From: Undaria pinnatifida
Taxonomy: Eukaryota; Sar; Phaeophyceae; Laminariales; Alariaceae
Direction of reading: 5' to 3'
Assembly (NCBI GenBank): GCA_012845835.1
Contig: JABAKD010000023.1
Span: 21,608,203-21,672,202 of the forward strand
DNA length: 64,000 nucleotides
A model generated the notes under the pieces. The model was not told the DNA's origin. It searched no databases and saw nothing but the letters and a program-made list of their open reading frames with translations. Below, in pieces: positions 37,575 through 57,172 of the stretch (positions within the stretch are counted from its first letter, which is position 1; every line of letters starts with the position of its first letter). A program made the translations under genes and the position numbers.

Positions 37575-38045
37575 GCGACCAGAGCTCCATCGTCATCTGA
37601 GCTCCGTCGTCACCTGAGCTTTGCCACCAGAGCTCCATCGTCACGTGAGTTTCGTCGTCGCCTGAGCTTAGCCACCAGAGCTCCATTGTCACCTGAACTT
37701 CGCCGTCACCTGAGCTTCGCGACCAGACCTCCACGTTCACCGGGGTTCCACCTTTCACCAGAGCTTCGACGTCACCTGAGCTTCGCCGTCACCTGAGCTT
37801 CGAGACCAGAGCTCCACGCTCACCGGAGTTCCACCTTTCACCAGAGCTACGTCGTCACCCGAGCTTCAAGCCCAGAAATCCACCTTTTCCAGAGCTCCAT
37901 TTTCGATAGAGCTTCGTCGTCACCTGTACTTCGCGACCGCAGCTCCTCCTGCACGGAGATCCGTCGTCACCTGTCGTCACCTGAGCTTCGCGACCAGAGC
38001 TCCACCTTCGTCAGAGCTTCGCCTTCCACCTGAGCTTCACCGCCG
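37575..38045 (+). repeat. Minisatellite with GAGCTCCATCGTCACCT core
   Basis: At least a dozen copies of a 21-24-bp core (AGAGCTCCATCGTCACCTGAGCTTCG and variants), arranged in higher-order units of about 48-72 bp containing CGACCAGAGCTCCAC. Read in frame it gives SPELRRHLSFATRAP repeats, but no start, domain or splice context supports a protein. Confidence 0.75.
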
Positions 38046-39124: not shown

Positions 39125-39295
39125 AGTTAGTTTCAAGGTGCCCCTTCTTTGCCTTGACTCTTCGGGTAGTCACACTTTTGAACAGCACATATGTTCGCGT
39201 GCTTGTGTCGGTGTGATACCCTGACTTTTCGGGCTGTTCCACTTTTGACGAGCACATATGTTTGCGTGCTTGCGTCGGTGTGCTACCCTGGCCTT
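39125..39295 (+). repeat. Tandem repeat of about 68-75 bp, two units
   Basis: CACTTTTGA.CAGCACATATGTTCGCGTGCTTGTGTCGGTGTG is repeated with few changes (about 39172 and 39240). The boundary between C-rich and T-rich LARD interior lies just before this. Confidence 0.65.
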
Positions 39296-39579
39296 CCAGC
39301 CACTGATTTAGCTGGCCCCATTTTCGTAACCAGGCCGAAAAGTTTTGGTGGTTCTGTCTTCCTGTTTGCGCCGGTTTAACCTGCCCCGTTTTCGTAACTT
39401 GGCCCAAACCTGCCGTGTTTTCGTTTCCTCTCGTCGGTTTAGCGTACCCTTGTTTCGCTGTCCGCGAATCCGCTGTAGTATTTTTTTTTCGTTGGCCTTC
39501 CCCTTGATTTCTGCAATACGTACGAAATAGGTGCATATTGGGCATCGTATATGTCTCCAAAACCGCTGTGGCATGCCCA

Positions 39580-39830
39580 TCTTGGCTCTTCCGCTTTTTG
39601 CACTACGTACGTCATTGGTACTTAATGAGGCGTCATATTTGGCTTCTTACCGCTTTGGCATATATGTCTTAGCCCTTCCCCAAACATTTGCACTCCGTAC
39701 GTCATAGGTGCTTATTGAGGCGTCGTATTTGTTCTGTTACCACTGTGGTATACGTGGTATGTGCTCTGGCCCTTCCTCTATTTTTTGCACTGCGCACGCC
39801 GTAGGTGCTTATTGAGGCGTGTTGTCCCCC
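39580..39830 (+). repeat. Tandem repeat of about 105-115 bp, three units
   Basis: TTTTTGCACTACGTACGTCATTGGTACTTAATGAGGCGTC and variants at about 39593, 39687 and 39783, each preceded by GCCCTTCC/GCTCTTCC. Confidence 0.65.
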
Positions 39831-47625: not shown

Positions 47626-47926
47626 ATGTAAGAATGTCGGAACAGTCTGGAGTTTGGCGGAACGAAGAGGAAATATCGGAGATCCGGGTAACATAGGAGG
47701 GGGGGGGTGGTTCCAGGGGGAGGGATAGCAAAAATAGGAGGACCTCAGCAGCAACAACGTAGCACAGCAGCAGCACACCAGCAGCGAGTATCTGGCACAA
47801 CACACTGTAGAGAAAGAAGGGAGTAGCGCCCACGCAGCAGCGACAGCAGCAGCAGTAGCGGTAGGGAGAAGACGTCGGCAGGAGTATAGGGGAGAGAGGT
47901 GGCACGGGGAGACACCAATCGCAATC
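47626..47926 (+). repeat. DIRS-like element, split direct repeat A1
   Basis: 301 bp starting ATGTAAGAATGTCGGAACAG, about 98% identical to A2 (54681-54980). It ends CACCAATCGCAATC, seven bases before the gag-like ATG at 47933. Confidence 0.85.
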
Positions 47927-47932
47927 CGAATC

Positions 47933-48922
47933 ATGGCTGGGAGGGAGGTGTACGAGGACATGTTATCGTCACAGGAACGGGAAGCAGGTTTCCAGGCGAA
48001 GATCAGGAAGCTGCGGAAGGAGCTGGAAGAGACGGAGCGCATGCGGAAAGAAGAGCTGGAGAGGAGGGAGGAAGCAAGGATATCGAAGGGGAGCGACGAG
48101 GACGTGCGGGAGATACGGAAGCCGGGGGACCAAACAGCAGGCTCCGACAAGGAGGGTAACGGTGAGAACCAACGTCAGGAAGAACTGGGAAGGGAGAGAG
48201 ATGAGAGTGAGCGTAGAAGGGCGGAAGAGAGGTGGAAGGCAATATTTGAGAGCGAGGTCGAAAAGGAGGTTGGCAGACGGATGCGCGCGAGAGACACGAG
48301 TAAGGACATGACCGAAATGGATGAACCTGCGAGTAACCCACAACAGCAGGAGCAGCACAAAGAGCCGAGGAGGCAAGACCAGCACCACCAGCCGGAGGGA
48401 CGGAGAAACATGGGCCAACCCTGCGAACGCAGGGGGGTTTCACATGACACGGAGGCCGGGGAGGTTAGGGAAAGAACGAGACAAATGTTACTCTCAAAGA
48501 ATGCCACCGAACGACGAAGCCAAAGCCAAGAGGTCGGGAGATGGGAAGCAGGAGGCAGGGGCCCGCAAATAGAACCCACAACTGAGGACGGCTACTGGAG
48601 GCAGATGGGACAGGAACACGGAGAAGGGTGGGAAGGAAGGGGTGGAGTTCCGATCACAGAACCTTCAGCCGAGGGCGGATATTGGGGAGGCAGGAGGGGA
48701 GGACCGGAACAGGGAGGGTGGATACAGGGGGGAAAAGGGAAACGCCAGCACAGGGATACGGCAGCAGAAGAAGATTGGTGGTTTAGTGACGAAATGGGTA
48801 GAGGAGCATGGACGAGGCAAATGGCCGAAGACGGCTACTGGGGGACGACGAGAGGAAGGGCTAATGAGAAGAGAGGATGGGAAGACAAGGAGGTGGCACC
48901 GGGGTGGGGAAGGCGAGAATGA
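47933..48922 (+). CDS. DIRS-like ORF1a, charged coiled-coil gag-like protein
   Basis: 329 codons. Residues about 12-55 and 80-115 are Glu/Arg/Lys-rich heptad-like helices; the C-terminal half has degenerate repeats of (E)DGYW...G (around residues 226, 254, 299). No nucleic-acid-binding motif in this piece. Directly follows A1 as gag does in this order. The reading frame appears to continue at 49022 after a frameshift. Confidence 0.6.
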   Translation: MAGREVYEDMLSSQEREAGFQAKIRKLRKELEETERMRKEELERREEARISKGSDEDVREIRKPGDQTAGSDKEGNGENQRQEELGRERDESERRRAEERWKAIFESEVEKEVGRRMRARDTSKDMTEMDEPASNPQQQEQHKEPRRQDQHHQPEGRRNMGQPCERRGVSHDTEAGEVRERTRQMLLSKNATERRSQSQEVGRWEAGGRGPQIEPTTEDGYWRQMGQEHGEGWEGRGGVPITEPSAEGGYWGGRRGGPEQGGWIQGGKGKRQHRDTAAEEDWWFSDEMGRGAWTRQMAEDGYWGTTRGRANEKRGWEDKEVAPGWGRRE

Positions 48923-49021
48923 TTTGGGGGTGAAGGGTGAAAGCGGGGCGAAACGGGAGCGGACAGGGGCTCAGGGCCCAGCAGTTACTTCAGGGAGCCG
49001 GAACCGTCATCATGGGCGCAC

Positions 49022-49729
49022 GTGATGGACATGGGGATGGTTATGTGGGGGGTAATCAGGGCAGACGGGGGAGTACCGCCATGGGGTTCGGTGAAGGAAC
49101 GGGCGATGTCTTCGTTGTGTAGTGAGCGGTTCTTTATGAACCGGAAAGGAGAGGGGGGCCTGATGCGTTTTTCCGACCTAGACATGACCATGTATTCGAG
49201 GACAGAGAAGTCGGGGAAGCGCCGGAGTGAGGGGGGGACAGCCTTGCCAGACAGGGTGGAGGCTACTCTGGGGGTGACTCTGTACATGGCGAGGTTAGCG
49301 ACGGACGTGCACACGAAGATGGGGCGGGAAGCGTTGGGAAGGGTGGAGAGTCGATTGGGGAAACCATTCCACAGCGTAAAGGAAGGGGTAAATCATATTT
49401 TCGTGACGAACAGGAGGGTGGTAGAGTCGGAGTGCTTCCAGGATGAGTTCGTGACGCGATTCAATATGGACCTAGCGGAGTTGGGGGAAGAGGTGTGGAC
49501 GCAAGCGCTGAGGCTGAAGCGGAGGGGGAACACGTGGCCGACGGCAGAAGAGGCCGGGCCCCTACCAGTCCCGGAGTTTAAAGCAACGCGGGCGTGGCTG
49601 GATGTGGCGCCGCTACACATGAGGGGGGGGGGTGAGTGGAGGGTTGGGGGAGGGAGAAAAGGGGGGAGGGGGGGGGGTACGAAGAGGGACACCGGCGGGG
49701 GGAAGCGGGGCGGGGCGAGAGGGGCGTAG
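49022..49729 (+). CDS. DIRS-like ORF1b, gag-like middle region
   Basis: 235 codons. Residues 40-200 look globular (RFSDLDMTMYSRTEKSGK; VTLYMARLATDVHTKMGREAL; FQDEFVTRFNMDLAELGEEV) and helical, consistent with a capsid-like domain, though no family can be named. The last 30 residues are Gly/Arg-rich. Continues into the zinc-finger frame via a -1 or +1 shift near 49700. Confidence 0.5.
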   Translation: MMDMGMVMWGVIRADGGVPPWGSVKERAMSSLCSERFFMNRKGEGGLMRFSDLDMTMYSRTEKSGKRRSEGGTALPDRVEATLGVTLYMARLATDVHTKMGREALGRVESRLGKPFHSVKEGVNHIFVTNRRVVESECFQDEFVTRFNMDLAELGEEVWTQALRLKRRGNTWPTAEEAGPLPVPEFKATRAWLDVAPLHMRGGGEWRVGGGRKGGRGGGTKRDTGGGKRGGARGA

Positions 49730-49744
49730 GGGCAGAACGCAAGG

Positions 49745-49959
49745 GTGAAGAAAGGAAGGAGGGGGGGGAGAGCAGGGAGTGTTTCTTCTCTAAGTGCGGC
49801 AAGCCCTGTCCGTACATGGAAAAGTGGGGAGACTGCAAGTTCGAGCACAAGGTCGAGAAGGGTGGAAAAGACGAGCGAGTGGGGGGGGGAAGGGGCGAGA
49901 AGCGAGCAGCCCCGGGGGGGGAGGGGGCGGGGGAGAAGAAGGGTAAGAAGGACGAATGA
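49745..49959 (+). CDS. DIRS-like gag zinc finger (CCCH-like)
   Basis: In the frame opened at 49636 the segment CFFSKCGKPCPYMEKWGDCK ends in FEH. It places Cys at 49, 54, 58 and 67 and His at 71 (C-x8-C-x8-C-x3-H counting C49). This resembles a CCCH zinc finger rather than the CCHC knuckle of LTR-element gag. Flanks are Gly/Lys/Arg-rich, suitable for RNA binding. The true start is not defined. Confidence 0.5.
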
Positions 49960-50414
49960 AGGTACGGGCCCTGCCAGATCGCAGGGCCAGCCAAGGAAGA
50001 ACGAGGACCGGGGGGCGAATGCAAGCACAGAGAGCGCCACCGGGCGGACCAGAAAGGCTGGGAGACCAACATCGCGGGGGGGCCGACACCGGGGTCGGTC
50101 AGACCAATCAATTCAGGTGAAAAAAATAAGGGGCTCGAAGGAGGGGAGGAGGTAGTGGGGGGGAACCAGAGGGAAACAGGAACAGAAAGGGGAAAAATAC
50201 GGAAAGGAAAGGGAAAGGCAGTAGGTGACGAAGGGGATAAAGAAACACGGGAGATAGGGCGCGCGAGAGGAAGGGGGGAAGGAGGGTACGGGGAAAGAAC
50301 CGGACAGGTACAGGAAGGAGAAGCTAGTGGTATCGGGGCGGGAAGGTCGCGAATAAGAAATATCGAACTGGGAAAAGGGGGGAGCGACGGCGGCCAGGCC
50401 GCGAGCTCGAACAA

Positions 50415-51055
50415 ACGGGGGGTGCGCGGAGAAGGGGCCGTGAAAAGGGGGGGGGGGGGGGGGGGTGTACGGCAAGGAGACCGTACACGACCCGGCCGGG
50501 GGGGAGCACGGCAACGGGGCCGCGCAAAGAAAACGGGGGGGGGTGTGCGGCAACGGGGCCGCACACAATCAGGTCGGGAACGAACGTGGCGACGGGGCCG
50601 CGCAGGGCGATGGCGGCCAGGCCGCGAGTTCTAACAAATGGGGGGTGTGAGGCAAAGGGGCCACGCAAAAGGTGTGTGGGGTGTGTGCGGTAACGGGACC
50701 GTACACGACCCGGCCTGGGGGAAGCGCGGCAACGGGGCCGCGCAAATAAAAGGGGTGCGTGTGCAGCAACGGGGCTGCACACGGCCAGGCCGGGGGGGTA
50801 CGCGGCAACGGGGCCGCGAAAAGAAAGGGGGCGGGAGTGGGCGGCGATGGGGCCGTACACGACCATGGGGGGGGGGAACGTGGCAACGGGGCCGCGCGAG
50901 GAAAAGGGGGGGGGAGGGGGGGCAACGGGGCCGTACAAAACCAGGCGGGAGGGGAGCGCGGCGACGGGGCTGCGAAAAGGAAAAGGGGGGGAGCGGGCGA
51001 CAAGGGGGCCGTACACGCTCAGGAACGGGGAGCCTTCGGCAACGGGGCCGGAGGA
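50415..51055 (+). repeat. Array of covarying hairpins with CAACGGGG loop
   Basis: About 15 copies of N5-8-GG-CAACGGGG-CC-N5-8 where the flanks pair. Good examples: 50465-50488 (GTGTACGG/CCGTACAC, loop CAAGGAGA), 50543-50566 (GTGTGCGG/CCGCACAC), 50683-50706 (GTGTGCGG/CCGTACAC, one G-T), 50724-50743 (GCGCGG/CCGCGC), 50759-50782 (GTGTGCAG/CTGCACAC), 51034-51053 (CTTCGG/CCGGAG, one G-T). Stems vary with compensating changes while the loop is almost constant. Between ORF1 and the RT ORF of the DIRS-like element. Long Gly/Arg or antisense Pro/Arg frames (e.g. minus 50324-51169) are by-products of the repeat. Confidence 0.75.
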
Positions 51056-51168
51056 GCGGGGCGTAGGGAAGGAGCTACCCACGGGAAGGAGGGACAGAGC
51101 GTAGCCACGGGGCGGCGCACGAGTACAAGGGCGAGGAACGGGAGACGGTCCTAAGGTGGAGGAGCGCA

Positions 51169-52815
51169 ATGGAGTGCCTGGGGAAGACAGGGGAAGACGC
51201 AGTCGAAAGAGATCGCCTGCTGGAGGTCGTGGCTAGGTTGGGAGAGGAGATGCTACTAAGGAAAGGAGGGGACGTAGGGAAGGTGGTGTGGGCGTTAGGT
51301 GGAGAGCTGCTCGCGCCACATATTGACGTAGAGCGCGTGAAGAAATTATTCGGGGAACGACACAAGGTCGACCAGTTTGCACTGCTGGAACAGATAGCGA
51401 GGGTAGGCGTGCCGGTGGATGTGGGACCCGGAGGTAATCTCGAGCGGGAACTGGCATACGGGAACCATAGCAGCGCCAGAAACCACGTGGCCGACGTGTG
51501 GGAGAATGCAGTGGGAGACGTCAAGAAAGGGAAAGCGATCGTGATGCCGGTGAGAGTAGCGCGGAGCGTGCGAGGTTCGCGGATTAATCCCGTGGGGGTA
51601 GTGGAAGAAGAAGGTAAGAGGAGGATAGTCCATATTTCGACGTTCAGCAGCGAACCGGAGCAACCCGGGGGGGGGGGGCGGCCGGTTAACGAGACGACGT
51701 ACTGGGACCAGATTTCAGAATGCCACCTGGCGAGCGTGATGGGCCAAATTATCAAGAGGGTGCTGGGGCTGCGGAACAAATTCGGGACAGGTAAAAGGAT
51801 CCTGATACAAAAAATGGACGTGAAGAGTGCCTTTCGACAGGTGGGAGTGGATCCAGCAGGGGCAGCAAACTTCGGGTACGTGCTGGGAGGGTATTTGTTT
51901 ATCGACTTGCGGTTGCATTTCGGATGGAGGGGGAGCCCAGGGTGGTGGGGTGTGATCGCCAGCGCGATCCAGCAGGCACAGAGGCAGACGACACAAGCAT
52001 CGGCGACGATCCTAGCTGCTGGCAAGGAGGCCACAGCGCATGTCCAAGTCGCGGGGCATACGGGAGTAGCGGTGGAGCCGCTGCCGCGGGGCTGCATAGT
52101 CGCGGAAGCGGAAGGGGGAGGGGAGGAGGACCCAGCGTGGGTGGTTTTTTTCATGGATGATGCGGTTTCGGTGGAGGTGCAGTGGGAAGCAGGCGGGGGA
52201 AGGTGCTTAGTGCTGCCGCAGGCACTGGCGTCGAATCACCACCAAGCGATGGGGGAGAGGGCAGTGGGTGAGGAGCCTCTGCTGTCACATAAAAAGGTGA
52301 CGGATTGGGCCCCTCGGCAGGAGGTACTGGGTTTTGACTCAGACACGGAGAGAATGACGATATCCTTGCCGGGAAGGAAGGTCACGGAGCTACGGGAGAT
52401 GCTCCAGGAGTGGCCCGAGGAGAGGAGCAAGGCGACGGTACGGGAGGTCCTCGTGCTGGCAGGCAAACTGCACCACGTGACGCACGTGATTAGACCAGGG
52501 CGGTATTTCGTGCGGCGGCTTCTGCAGCTGAGCAAGCTTCATCTGAATGGGCAGGAGAAAAGGGGGGGGGGGAGGGGGGCATGGGGAAAGGACAGGAAGA
52601 AGGCAGAGGCAGGGAGGGTGGTATATCTGACGGAAGAGTTCATGGCGGACGTGGAGTGGTGGAGATGGTGCATGACGGAGGGCTTGGCCGGGCGGGGGGA
52701 AGAGTTGGCGGCACCGTTCTTCCGGTTCGTGAAACAGCCTCATAAAAGAACCTGGTTTTCCGACGCATCATTCGAGGCAGTAGGGGGGCTATGCCTGGAG
52801 ACGGGGGTGTATTGA
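51169..52815 (+). CDS. DIRS-like reverse transcriptase
   Basis: 548 codons. RT motif A at KMDVKSAFRQV (D217), motif B region FGWRGSPGWWGV (251-262), catalytic MDD at 329-331 (52153-52161), then VLGFDSDTERMTISLP, the LAGKLHHVTHVIRPGRYFVRRLL region and the RNase H start TWFSDAS. This set is characteristic of DIRS-type RT. An insertion-like low-complexity stretch (about 272-322) lies between motifs B and C. The stop after GLCLETGVY cuts the RNase H domain at its first strand. Confidence 0.85.
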   Translation: MECLGKTGEDAVERDRLLEVVARLGEEMLLRKGGDVGKVVWALGGELLAPHIDVERVKKLFGERHKVDQFALLEQIARVGVPVDVGPGGNLERELAYGNHSSARNHVADVWENAVGDVKKGKAIVMPVRVARSVRGSRINPVGVVEEEGKRRIVHISTFSSEPEQPGGGGRPVNETTYWDQISECHLASVMGQIIKRVLGLRNKFGTGKRILIQKMDVKSAFRQVGVDPAGAANFGYVLGGYLFIDLRLHFGWRGSPGWWGVIASAIQQAQRQTTQASATILAAGKEATAHVQVAGHTGVAVEPLPRGCIVAEAEGGGEEDPAWVVFFMDDAVSVEVQWEAGGGRCLVLPQALASNHHQAMGERAVGEEPLLSHKKVTDWAPRQEVLGFDSDTERMTISLPGRKVTELREMLQEWPEERSKATVREVLVLAGKLHHVTHVIRPGRYFVRRLLQLSKLHLNGQEKRGGGRGAWGKDRKKAEAGRVVYLTEEFMADVEWWRWCMTEGLAGRGEELAAPFFRFVKQPHKRTWFSDASFEAVGGLCLETGVY

Positions 52816-53160
52816 AGGTACAACCTGACCGAGGAAGAGAGAGCGAGGACAGTCAGGAGCAGGAGAAGGGAGCACGTGAACAGGCTGTCCATCAATGTTC
52901 TGGAGCTGCTCGGGATGGTGATGACGGCCTTCGGGATGATTGTGATCAGGAAGGATAGGCCGGGGAGGGTGGGAGAGCCAGTACTGATGAGGGGGGAATA
53001 GCTCGTCGGCGGTTCAGTGGGTGAAGAATTGCAAGGGGGGAAAAGGGGATGTGAGATCGGAGGGATGATGAGAATTTTGGGGGTGTTGGAGCAGATAGGG
53101 GGGTGGTGCTTCCAGGCGAAGCACGTGCGGGGGGTGGAGAACGGGTTAGCAGACGGGATA
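52740..53160 (+). pseudogene. DIRS-like RNase H (broken)
   Basis: Begins WFSDAS at the end of the RT ORF. After the TGA at 52813 the same phase resumes with INVLELLGMVMTAF (catalytic Glu region) and PGRVGEPVLMRG. A one-base loss near 52993-53002 then removes the expected Asp of the R-G-D-N block. The continuation SSAVQWVKNCKGG is in another frame, and AKHVRGVENGLADG..RW (final catalytic Asp) in a third. Confidence 0.75.
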
Positions 53161-53239
53161 ACGAGGTGGAAGGAAGACGAAATCCAATCGAGGCTGACCA
53201 AAGAATGCCCTGCCGTCCCGTGGCAGGCCCAGGAGCTTG

Positions 53240-54433
53240 GACCGGAAGGAGAGGAGATGTGTTCGGAGATTTTGCACGCAGCTACGGACTTGGGCGGGTT
53301 GCGAAGTCGACTGGAAAGACTTATGCGCAAGGGTGGAGAATGTGGGTGAGTTGGAGGATGATGAGGGGAAAAGGGAACTGGTTAGGGAAGGACATGGACG
53401 AGTGGGAGCTGGTGGAGGAGCTGACAGAGTTCATGGCCTACTGCTGCGCGGAAAGGAAGAATAAGGAGGCGACCGTGGCAGGGAAGCTGATGGCGGTTAA
53501 CTTTTATCACGAGCAGTGGGGGGGGCTGTCTCTGCCGCTGCAGCACTTCAGGATTCAGGCAGTGAAGAAGGGAATCAGGAGGGCGCATGCGGAGGCGGGG
53601 AACCAGGCACGGGTAAGGAGGCCGCTGACGTGGGAGATGATCAGAGTGATGGAGGAGGGTATCGGCGCGTGGGGGTAGGGGGGAGGATCGTGTGGATCGG
53701 GCTGGCACTGACGTATCAGCTGCTGCTGTGGGCTTCGGAACTATTCGCGGAGGAAGGAAGAAAGGCGCATGAGGTTTACTGCTTGAGGAGGGGGGATGTG
53801 GCTTTCTTCGAGAAAGGGGTGCAGCTGGGACCGGGAGGGAAGGAAGCCGCGGATATGGTGGAGATCCGTTTCAAGGGGGGGAAAGGAGACCAGGGGAGAA
53901 AAGGCGCGGTAGCCGTGAGAACAAAAGGTTCGGGGGGGGTCGGGGGGGGGGTGGAAGGGAACGTAGTGGACCTGATGGCGGAGCTAGTAGGCTACTACGG
54001 GGAGACGGTTCCGGGGGGGGGAAACGCCCCGCTGATGATCTACAGGAGCGGGGGAAGATGGAAGGTATGGACGAAAGGGCAAGCGACGTTTTGCTTAAGG
54101 AGCGGGCTGGAGAGAGTGGCGAGGAAATGGAAGAAGCAAGGGAAGGGGGCAGTGGGAGAGCTGGTTCCAGAGGAATTCGAGCTGCATTCCGGAAGAATAG
54201 GGGGAGCGACAAGGCTGGCGGAGATGGGAGCACAGCCGTGGGTGATCCAGAGAGAAGGAAGGTGGGCGTCGCAGGCATTCATGGGGTACGTGAGATCGAA
54301 TATGGAAGACCCCCTTTGGGTGTCAAGAATTTTGGTAGGGAGGTCAGGAGCGCCGGGCAGACAGCCGGGGCAAGGGACGAGATGGGGGGGGGGAAGGGGG
54401 GGGGGGAGGGGGGGGGGGCGGGGGCGAGGGTAG
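53240..54433 (+). pseudogene. DIRS-like tyrosine recombinase (frameshifted)
   Basis: N-terminal core-binding part in 53103-53678 (STGKTYAQGWRMWVSW ... FMAYC ... VKKGIRRAHAE). The catalytic part is in the frame of 53516-54433: box I LLLWASELF, box II HSGR (H224, R227), GRW (W250) and nucleophile Y258 in FMGYVR. The box I arginine position is tryptophan (W72, codon TGG at 53729-53731, one C-to-T step from CGG). The frame changes at about 53676. In intact relatives it integrates a circular cDNA. Confidence 0.8.
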
Positions 54434-54471: not shown

Positions 54472-54680
54472 GGGCTTCTGGTTGTTGAGGTGATCTGTCG
54501 GGAAGGGCGCAGGTCAGCCGCGTACAATAGCTGGGAGAGGGAGCGGGGGAGGGAGAGGGGGGCAAGGAAAACCGGACGAGGGTGAGCCGTCAGTTTCCAC
54601 CCCCCCCACCCTCCCCCGCGGGCGGGGGGAAACGCCATGATATTAATGAACACGCATATTTTCTTGAAGAAGAGACCAAA
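54472..54680 (+). repeat. DIRS-like element, split direct repeat B1
   Basis: About 209 bp starting GGGCTTCTGGTTGTTGAGG and ending AGAGACCAAA, directly joined to A2. Matches B2 (55091-55294) with a few substitutions and a short indel. Confidence 0.85.
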
Positions 54681-54980
54681 ATGTAAGAATGTCGGAACAG
54701 TCTGGAGTTTGGCGGAACGAAGAGGAAATATCGGAGATCCGGGTAGCATAGGAGGGGGGGGTGGTTCCAGGGGGAGGGATAGCAAAAATAGGAGGACCTC
54801 AGCAGCAACAACGTAGCACAGCAGCAGCACACCAGCAGCGAGTATCTGACACAACGCACGGTAGAGGAAGAAGGGAGTAGCGCCCACGCAGCAGCGACAG
54901 CAGCAGCAGTAGCAGTAGGGAGAAGACGTCGGCAGGAGTATAGGGGAGAGAGGTGGCACGGGGAGACACCAATCGCAATC
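54681..54980 (+). repeat. DIRS-like element, split direct repeat A2
   Basis: 300 bp, near-identical to A1. The B1-A2 junction CCAAA|ATGTAAG represents the circle junction sequence expected for this class. Confidence 0.85.
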
Positions 54981-55090: not shown

Positions 55091-55294
55091 GGGCTTCTGG
55101 TTGTTGAGGTGATCTGTAGGGGGGCAAGTCAGCCGCGTACAATAGCTGGGAGAGGGAGCGGGGGAGGGAGAGGGGGGCAAGGAAAACCGGACGAGGGTGA
55201 GCCGTCAGTTTCCACCCACCCCACCCTCCCCCGCGGGCGGGGGGAACGCCATGATATTAATGAACACGCATATTTTCGTGAAGAGGAGACCAAA
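55091..55294 (+). repeat. DIRS-like element, split direct repeat B2
   Basis: Matches B1 and ends GGAGACCAAA at the element border, after which repeat G resumes (ATTGCATGTTTTTCG). The 110-bp spacer 54981-55090 is G-rich with (GGAA)n and a poly-G run. Confidence 0.85.
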
Positions 55295-55905
55295 ATTGCA
55301 TGTTTTTCGTTGTTCAGTTGTTTCTTCGTTCATTTTCTACCATGATTCGTTCGAACTCGTTTTTCATGTCCTGAACAATTTTTTTAACCTTTACTTTATT
55401 TTATTTTTTTATTTTTTTACTCTCTTTTTCCAAGATTTGTTTTTGGGAGTTGAACTTTGCAACTTTGCTTTTTTTATGAATTGAACTTGCATTGACGTCC
55501 ATGCTAGGGAGTTGAATTTGCATTTTATTAGACGCCCATGCGAGCTTTTATGTAATGCGCCCAAGGGCACACAACTCGAGGCAACATGAGCAAGCTGAAG
55601 CTGTGGGCCAGTTATGACAACAACTGTATTTTTTTCCTTTTTCAGTTGTTTCCTCGCTCATTTTCTGCTATCTCCTTTAAATTTGATTTGTGCGAACTCG
55701 TTTTTCATCTTCTGAACCTTTTTTTCAACCTTTTTTTACTTTTTTACTCCTTTTTTCCAAGATTTGTTTTTGTGAGTTGAACTTGCAACTTCGCTTATCC
55801 GGGAGTTGAACTTGCACTTTCATAGACGTCCATGTGAGCTTTTTTGCAATGCGCCCAAGGGCACACAACACAAGACAAGAGAAGCAAGCGGGCGCTCTGG
55901 GACAA
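55295..55905 (+). repeat. Dispersed repeat G, second plus-strand copy, continuation
   Basis: T-rich segments with TCGTTCGAACTCGTTTTTCAT and GGGAGTTGAACTTGCA, GACGTCCATGCGAGC, GCGCCCAAGGGCACACAAC, present twice (about 55310-55620 and 55640-55880). Same modules as 28640-29130 and inverted 58230-58640. Confidence 0.7.
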
Positions 55906-56288: not shown

Positions 56289-56417
56289 GTGAGTCGTACT
56301 TTTTATGTGTTGGCATGTGTCTTTGAACAATCAGTTCAGCCACAACAGTGTATGCTGCGCGCCGTGAGAGAGTGGTCGGCGCAGACAATCACATGCTTGC
56401 CAGGCGTCATGTTTGCC

Positions 56418-57172
56418 CTTTTAGTTCGTGTTCGATACTAGGGAAGCATCGCGCCGCCTTTGCTCTCGAGTTCTCCCCAGTTGTGTACGGCCAATTTTCT
56501 TTTTGCATGCAATCTTCTTGCTCGAGCTTTCTTCCTTCGTGTGTTGTCTATTCGTAGGGTGCCAAAAAGATTTTGTGTGCAACCTTTTTCTTTTCCAAAC
56601 CGTAACTTTCGTGTGAACTCCGCCCCTGTGTCTGCTGTTCCGCGTCTGCGACACCAGCTTGGTCAAACTTCTACGTCGTGTGGAAGGAGTGCTTGGGCAC
56701 GTAGCCTTTTAGTTCCTGTTCGATACTAGGGAAGCGTCGCGCCGCCTTTGCTCTCGAGTTCTCCCCAGCTTCTTCTTTTCCAAACCGTAACTTTCGTGTA
56801 AACTCCGCCCCTGTGTCTGCTGTTCCGCGTCTGCGACACCAGCTTGGTCAAACTTCTACGTGTGGAAGGAGTGCTTAGGCACGTAGCCTTGTAGTTCCTG
56901 TTCGATACTAGGGAAGCCTCGCGCCGCCTTTGCTCTCGAGTTCTCCGCAGTTGTGTACGACCAATTCTTTTTTGGATGCAATATTTTTGCTCGAGCTTTC
57001 CTCCTTCGTGTGTTGTCTACTCGTAGGGTGCCAAAACGTTTTTGCGTGCAACCTTTTTCTATCCCAAACCGTAACTTTCGTGTAAACTCCACCCCTGTGT
57101 CTGCTGTTCCGCGTCTGCGACACCAGCTTGGTCAACCTTCCACGTCGTGCGGAAGGAGTGCTTGGGCACGCG
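56418..57172 (+). repeat. Threefold tandem duplication including an exon start
   Basis: Units start at about 56418, 56705 and 56887 with TTTTAGTTCCTGTTCGATACTAGGG and include CTCTCGAGTTCTCCCCAG and AAACCGTAACTTTCGTG. Each ends in TCTGCGACACCAGCTTGGTCAA..TTC.ACGTCGTG.GGAAGGAGTGCTT. The middle unit lacks about 105 bp. Each unit ends with the same acceptor-like ACCAG and the first 40-45 nt of the exon at 57127. Confidence 0.7.

Follow-up and report, generated by a model that had tools for sequence, protein, structure and literature searches.

Split direct repeats have been described for the PAT-like retroelements (PMC3266345), and, as far as the consulted part of that paper goes, PAT-like, TOC, and Kangaroo elements share with the element described here repeats in the order A1 ... 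B1A2 ... B2 together with gag, reverse transcriptase (RT), and recombinase-like genes. The brown alga Ectocarpus harbors PAT-like DIRS elements of five families, according to the accessible portion of PMC12477816. In Ogre/Tat LTR retrotransposons, such as soybean Gmr9/GmOgre, internal minisatellites lie downstream of the coding region; as in the locus described below, tandem units are interleaved within a retrotransposon, vary in number, and have expanded in some copies (PMC3305785 and PMC7004042, in the sections available). In Candida Tca2, one UGA stands between gag and pol, as it does here (PMC2194720, from an excerpt).

The window, which is the whole stretch of DNA that was analyzed, comprises 64,000 nucleotides of Undaria pinnatifida (contig JABAKD010000023.1, positions 21,608,203 to 21,672,202 of the forward strand). 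It contains a retroelement with an array of hairpin-capable units between the gag and RT genes, and this array is probably an in-frame coding minisatellite that grew in the Gag–RT linker of a PAT-like tyrosine-recombinase retroelement with a Gag–UGA–Pol ORF and that is palindromic by descent.

The host element and its array

The element comprises the following features:

47626–47926, plus strand, left terminal repeat A1 (repeated at 54681–54980, 93–98%)
47738–49959, plus strand, gag region, fragmented in the window copy (open frames 47738–48922, 48941–49729, and 49636–49959)
49957–49975, plus strand, gag stop UGA with conserved 3' context TGARGNYACGGGCCCTKCC (comparison among families)
49960–50420, plus strand, G/A-rich linker from the gag stop to the array (sequence and open frames)
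50420–51055, plus strand, array of about 16 palindromic units with 39-nt spacing and two unit types (motif scan and Tandem Repeats Finder)
51067–52815, plus strand, reverse transcriptase ORF (nearly invariant DD at residues 364–365)
53501–54433, plus strand, tyrosine recombinase-like ORF (motif by eye; Phage_integrase E 0.41, below the cut-off)
54498–54680, plus strand, repeat B1 (repeat comparison)
54681–54980, plus strand, repeat A2 (repeat comparison)
55113–55296, plus strand, repeat B2, right end (repeat comparison)

The split direct repeats A1 ... B1A2 ... B2 surround gag, the linker, the array, the RT, and the recombinase-like gene, which is the PAT-like arrangement. Judging from these repeats, the nearly invariant DD, the sub-threshold Phage_integrase match, motifs read by eye, and a low-confidence RT model, the host of the array is a split-direct-repeat (PAT-like, DIRS-order) retroelement. 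The RT structure model has a mean pLDDT of 51.9, and every one of its 22 best PDB matches is a retroviral RT, the best with an E value of 2.3e-3 and none at or below 0.001. A Pfam search of the RT ORF returned no RVT_1 match and nothing at the cut-off in the window protein, a Pfam search of the window gag gave zero matches, and a sequence search against solved structures gave one chance match only; a CCCH-like finger was read by eye in gag near 49790–49840. The window copy is decayed, with a fragmented gag, two in-frame stops between the gag stop and the RT, and a 1-nt phase error past the array; other copies of the element contain long open gag frames. The plus strand of the element (window 48000–54000) has a strong purine bias, with a GC skew of about 0.4 and an AT skew of up to 0.4, and long open frames are therefore cheap on both strands. 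Elsewhere in the window, a cluster of 90–200 bp direct repeats with 72–98% identity lies just to the right of the element (56389–57170), and tandem arrays with units of 48/83 bp, 67 bp, and 90 bp occupy 37578–37899 and 39155–39820.

Within the array, GGCAACGGGGCC occurs 14 times at 50510–51049 with at most two mismatches (seven exact copies, two with one mismatch, and five with two), and two degenerate units start at 50427 and 50471, in agreement with the first-pass annotation, which had counted about 15 recurrences of the core. The whole window holds 17 such matches, against a mean of 7.39 (sd 2.57, largest 13) in 100 shuffles. Most of the 14 units start 39 nt after the preceding one, the exceptions being distances of 63, 38, and 37 nt, and a 78-nt period of two units is detected by Tandem Repeats Finder; the array is a tandem repeat, an interpretation that the annotation had argued out. 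Two unit types are common, GTGTRC-core-GYACAC and GCGC-core-GCGC. The loop had been described as invariant, but five other loop sequences occur among the units (CGACGGGG, CAAAGGGG, TAACGGGA, CGATGGGG, and CAAGGGGG). The stems had been said to change together, and the stem pairs quoted in support are indeed present; however, only 6 of the 16 units reach at least six contiguous standard pairs, even with wobble and the inner GG/CC counted, and pairing fails sooner in the other 10, so that the description is true of a minority of units.

The array could alternatively act in cis, its RNA or single-stranded DNA hairpins serving as binding sites for Gag or a host protein in packaging, reverse transcription, or the control of translation, a reading that we consider unlikely. 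It is favored by the strong folding of the array, which beats all of 20 dinucleotide shuffles (z −12.86 on the plus strand and −9.00 on the minus strand), although a strand made of repeated palindromes must fold strongly. Membership in a known RNA family was rejected, as an Rfam search of 49700–51400 gave zero family matches up to E 1.

Copies and derivatives in the genome

A genome-wide search of 511 Mb in 68 contigs with a 15-mer of the unit yielded 537 exact matches (307 + 230), with none for the reversed control. Fifteen array places sampled from the match list (L044–L058) were all tied to the element family, either by element flanks, by sequence common with the dissected derivatives described below, or by nearby recombinase or terminal-repeat hits. 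The proposal of a hairpin-capable array that lies between the gag and RT genes of a DIRS-like element and is repeated in the genome is thus upheld, and a generic satellite outside the element is ruled out for these 15 places. An RT search of the genome found at least 92 matches, a lower bound because 75 of 2318 candidates were scored, and the best 15 have 90–100% identity and cover at least 498 of 582 residues. Among the 17 loci with an RT match from codon 10 or earlier, 11 have 23 cores each upstream of the RT, with spacings near 39, 63, 78, and 81, and the others have 12 to 26, including 14 in the window. Tandem units within element copies, in numbers that differ from copy to copy, correspond to what is understood by a retrotransposon-internal minisatellite.

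A non-autonomous derivative class has lost nearly all of the RT and most of gag, while the terminal repeats and the recombinase gene are kept and the array is enlarged. The two dissected derivatives contain 63 (L059) and 53 (L060) cores, and related stretches contain 82 (L044), 60 (L050), 59 (L049), and 50 (L045); what is left of gag and RT in this lineage is fragments that are out of order. Sixteen stretches upstream of recombinase hits (L061–L076), picked from 41 recombinase matches, were fetched, and 13 of them have the derivative layout. Two others (L072 and L073) are RT-bearing and coreless within the stretch, L073 apparently because a deletion removed the array and most of the RT, and L074 contains three cores and no protein match. 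Twelve of the 13 derivative-layout stretches carry 7–17 cores within the fetched 1.5–1.6 kb, the exception being L062 with zero. This retention of units beside the recombinase gene, along with the much enlarged arrays of L059 and L060, speaks for cis-acting hairpins; however, the derivatives, which hold higher-order repeats of 110–479 bp, look like a single lineage, and the retention would therefore count as one event.

The distribution among related families also weighs against cis-acting hairpins, as the four loci examined from families at 41–57% RT identity contain no such array. In sister families at 56–57% RT identity (L033 and L035), G/A-rich tandem repeats occupy the same place, but hairpins are not in excess (3 and 3 versus shuffle means of 2.8 and 2.3). 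The array is absent from one locus each of the families at 43% and 41% RT identity (L042 and L043), which display a mild scattered hairpin excess (19 and 15, where shuffles average 8.3 and reach at most 17 and 13). A hairpin array conserved in sister families was accordingly rejected.

Reading frame across the array

In the window copy, L040, L042, and L043, the stop codon of gag is a UGA, the sequence after it is conserved (window 49957–49995), and this context is common to the family of the window and the families at 43% and 41% RT identity. Exact copies of TGARGNYACGGGCCCTKCC are found at 142 places in the genome (86 + 56), and the reversed control is found at none. Six loci were read across the UGA (L077–L082): in L080 and L082, which belong to distant families, 494 and 459 open codons precede the UGA and at least 505 follow in the same frame, and in the other four, 59–500 open codons precede it and 45–186 follow. 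The conserved gag UGA context is likely a readthrough signal, as deduced from these comparisons, and the linker, with the array within it, would therefore be translated.

The 20 RT-bearing loci keep a reading frame through the array, in that 385 of their 421 spacings are divisible by 3. Counted frame by frame, beginning with the one that reads Gly-Asn-Gly-Ala, the stops number 5, 20, and 29 in about 2,300 codons each, a depletion with an odds ratio of 0.20 and a p value of 6e-5 that is optimistic because the units, although unique, are related; the frame with the fewest stops is the one that continues into the RT. L016 alone has 0, 3, and 5 stops. Both features are lost in nine derivative arrays, eight of them without an RT match in the fetched stretch and one (L054) with a 53-residue RT fragment: 134 of 383 spacings are multiples of 3, and the stops number 28, 30, and 50 (odds ratio 0.67, p 0.08). 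Six older RT-bearing copies have 55 of 82 spacings in threes and 9, 19, and 24 stops, and ten further loci of various kinds, including four that overlap, have 86 of 158 spacings in threes and 19, 16, and 20 stops, with no depletion. The window array taken alone has 11 of 13 spacings in threes and 1, 1, and 2 stops. The frame is thus kept and the stops are depleted in the RT-bearing copies, as in an in-frame coding repeat, with the reservation that these copies are related and independent spacing events are therefore few.

The array is also joined to the RT in phase. Phase between the last core and RT codon 6 is kept in 15 of the 17 countable loci, with a distance of 45 nt in 14 loci and 39 nt in one; the exceptions are the window and L023, with 44 nt. 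An open frame runs from the array through to the RT in L016 and L022, as checked in the plus-strand loci and L041. In L039 and L040, the frame past the gag stop shifts by one near a poly-G run at the array start, and L041 shifts differently. The 36 of 421 spacings in RT-bearing copies that are not multiples of 3 could stem from poly-G assembly error.

The variation within the array carries no codon-position bias in 18 copies, in a comparison of low power (52, 41, and 47 variable sites by position), and the RT itself has little bias at this divergence (25, 14, and 30 in 13 copies). On the same 13 copies, 124 of 1080 sites are variable in the array and 69 of 1090 in the RT. From the sequence comparisons, the pattern agrees with a linker in which the reading frame is important and the identity of the residues barely so.

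The array could also be a neutral minisatellite that lies in a spacer outside translation and has no RNA, DNA, or protein role; this explanation is unlikely, if slightly less so than cis-acting hairpins. The greater variability of the array than of the RT would suit it, as would the differing core number among copies and the higher-order repeats of the derivatives. Against it stand the frame-preserving spacing and the clear stop depletion, both of which occur in RT-bearing copies and not in derivatives, and the finding that, in distant families, a single stop separates gag from an RT in the same frame.

According to the coding interpretation, which we favor, the 39-nt unit, which is 13 codons long, would be read with GGC-AAC-GGG-GCC and the flanking codons giving Gly-Asn-Gly-Ala, and readthrough of the gag UGA would allow the unit to be translated as a tolerant repetitive spacer. 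The founder unit may have been an imperfect palindrome by chance, which slippage or unequal exchange would then have multiplied, and the hairpins would be inherited rather than maintained. In the derivative class, which has lost nearly all of the RT, the spacing in threes is lost as well, and six fetched copies have 50–82 cores. The largely negative tests for stem selection described below and the hairpin-poor G/A-rich repeats at the same place in the sister families also favor coding. Two observations on the derivative arrays count against the coding interpretation: the core is still recognizable though translation need not occur, and stops are somewhat, not significantly, fewer in the Gly-Asn-Gly-Ala frame. 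The lack of codon-position bias in the array, the frame changes in L039, L040, and L041, the spacings of RT-bearing copies that are not in threes, and the undepleted stops of the ten mixed loci weigh against it as well. On the frame and stop pattern, coding is favored over selection for structure.

Stem pairing and comparison with known elements

The pairing of the stems was examined with units located by the core motif with at most 2 or 3 mismatches, a search that biases core conservation upward. The set of 903 unique units was reduced to 657 with at most two core mismatches, 643 past a homology filter, and 290 representatives; sister-pair tests were performed on the 657 units, the tree-null test and the clustered register comparison on the 290, and an initial within-cluster permutation on both.

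The first-pass annotation had proposed selection for structure and suggested a search for significant stem covariation; neither such selection nor significant covariation is supported by the tree-null G-test, the sister contrasts, or the close copies. The best p value in the G-test is 0.12 (pair 3), with 0.37–0.995 at 13 other pairs, against a null that is rough because of tree saturation (length 68 on 44 columns). The co-change odds ratio in 273 matched sister pairs is 1.66 at the stem versus 1.48–2.10 at five slid registers, and of 41 double changes, 3 leave both sisters paired; when matching is looser, the stem value stays inside the range of the controls (1.80 versus 1.47–2.18; 2.11 versus 1.68–2.69). 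The sister contrasts, which are not clearly above the slid controls, argue against cis-acting hairpins. Among 19 close copies, from which L009, L024, and L030 were excluded, as they were from the family-wide count of array variation, wobble-keeping C>T and wobble-breaking G>A changes at G-C pairs are equally frequent (7 and 7), and double changes at stem pairs are absent. A comparison of 11 corresponding units in the RT-bearing and derivative lineages gives differences of 6–8% in the core, 5% in the next six bases, and 12–14% in the spacers, and the hairpin divergence of 5–8% equals that of the adjoining unique linker (7–8%).

Several weaker signals point the other way. The stem arms of the close copies are less variable (13 and 20 of 179 sites each) than the spacers (162 of 653), which are rich in poly-G and hard to align, and the loops (21 of 168) come close to the stems. 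When the inner pairs alone are taken, the co-change odds ratio is 2.79 versus 1.43–2.97 in six slid registers, and the double changes that leave both sisters paired number 4 of 19 versus 6 of 75 in the pooled slid registers (8 of 32 versus 14 of 144 at the looser limit). Of eight stem-pair differences read from L025 to L049, an order that implies no direction of change, three go from unpaired to paired, three are unpaired throughout, two are paired throughout, including one double change from G-C to A-T, and none loses pairing. At inner pairs −1, 0, 1, 2, and 4, the paired fraction is above the tree null (p 0.005–0.037), which drifts far from the observed composition; at pair 2, when wobble is included, 0 of 400 simulations reach the observed value. 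Within-cluster permutation, which leaves the relatedness of units in place, gives a Watson–Crick excess at the stem register of z 5.0 with 40 clusters, but the register slid by 2 still gives 4.3; the corresponding values are 5.8 versus 3.9 with 20 clusters and 3.5 versus 3.0 with 80. This excess is driven mainly by pair 2, at which the largest cluster of one unit type (61 units) contains GT 26, AT 16, GC 14, and AC 0 times, and AC is present in other units (11 of 290). Two founder changes suffice to explain the pair-2 pattern in this cluster, a point in favor of the neutral minisatellite. Taken together, the stem covariation in these alignments appears weak at best and is not established.

A further reading combines the two roles, with a coding array doubling as a multivalent RNA hairpin array recognized in cis, which RT-less derivatives would keep and enlarge to compete for the machinery of the autonomous element; we regard it as distinctly improbable.

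Under the favored interpretation, a coding minisatellite palindromic by descent, the locus is an example of a tyrosine-recombinase retroelement with a minisatellite in its interior, at a position between gag and RT at which the frame is important. It offers a natural contrast, in which spacing in threes and few stops accompany the presence of the RT, and both are lost in the RT-less derivative class, where the array is enlarged. It also calls for caution, since palindromic tandem repeats can mimic covarying hairpins. In the open-licence literature, as far as its consulted passages extend, no minisatellite between the gag and RT of a DIRS-order element was found described, and nothing pertinent was found on packaging hairpin arrays in retrotransposons. 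TOC1 of Chlamydomonas is said to contain tandem 76-bp repeats.

In comparison with PAT-like, TOC, and Kangaroo elements, the window element differs in having its recombinase on the same strand and in its hairpin-bearing minisatellite between gag and RT, of which the available text of PMC3266345 makes no mention. The PAT-like elements of Ectocarpus belong to the same group, and the consulted part of PMC12477816 is likewise silent on an internal array. The minisatellites of Ogre/Tat elements, in the portions of the two papers cited above, are situated after the coding region and before the 3' LTR, whereas the array of the window separates gag from RT, probably in frame, and belongs to an element of another order. 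Unlike Tca2, the window element has the conserved TGARGNYACGGGCCCTKCC context after its UGA and is a tyrosine-recombinase element, with a readthrough that is here inferred from sequence; shared by several families, this gag-stop context represents a directly testable candidate recoding signal.
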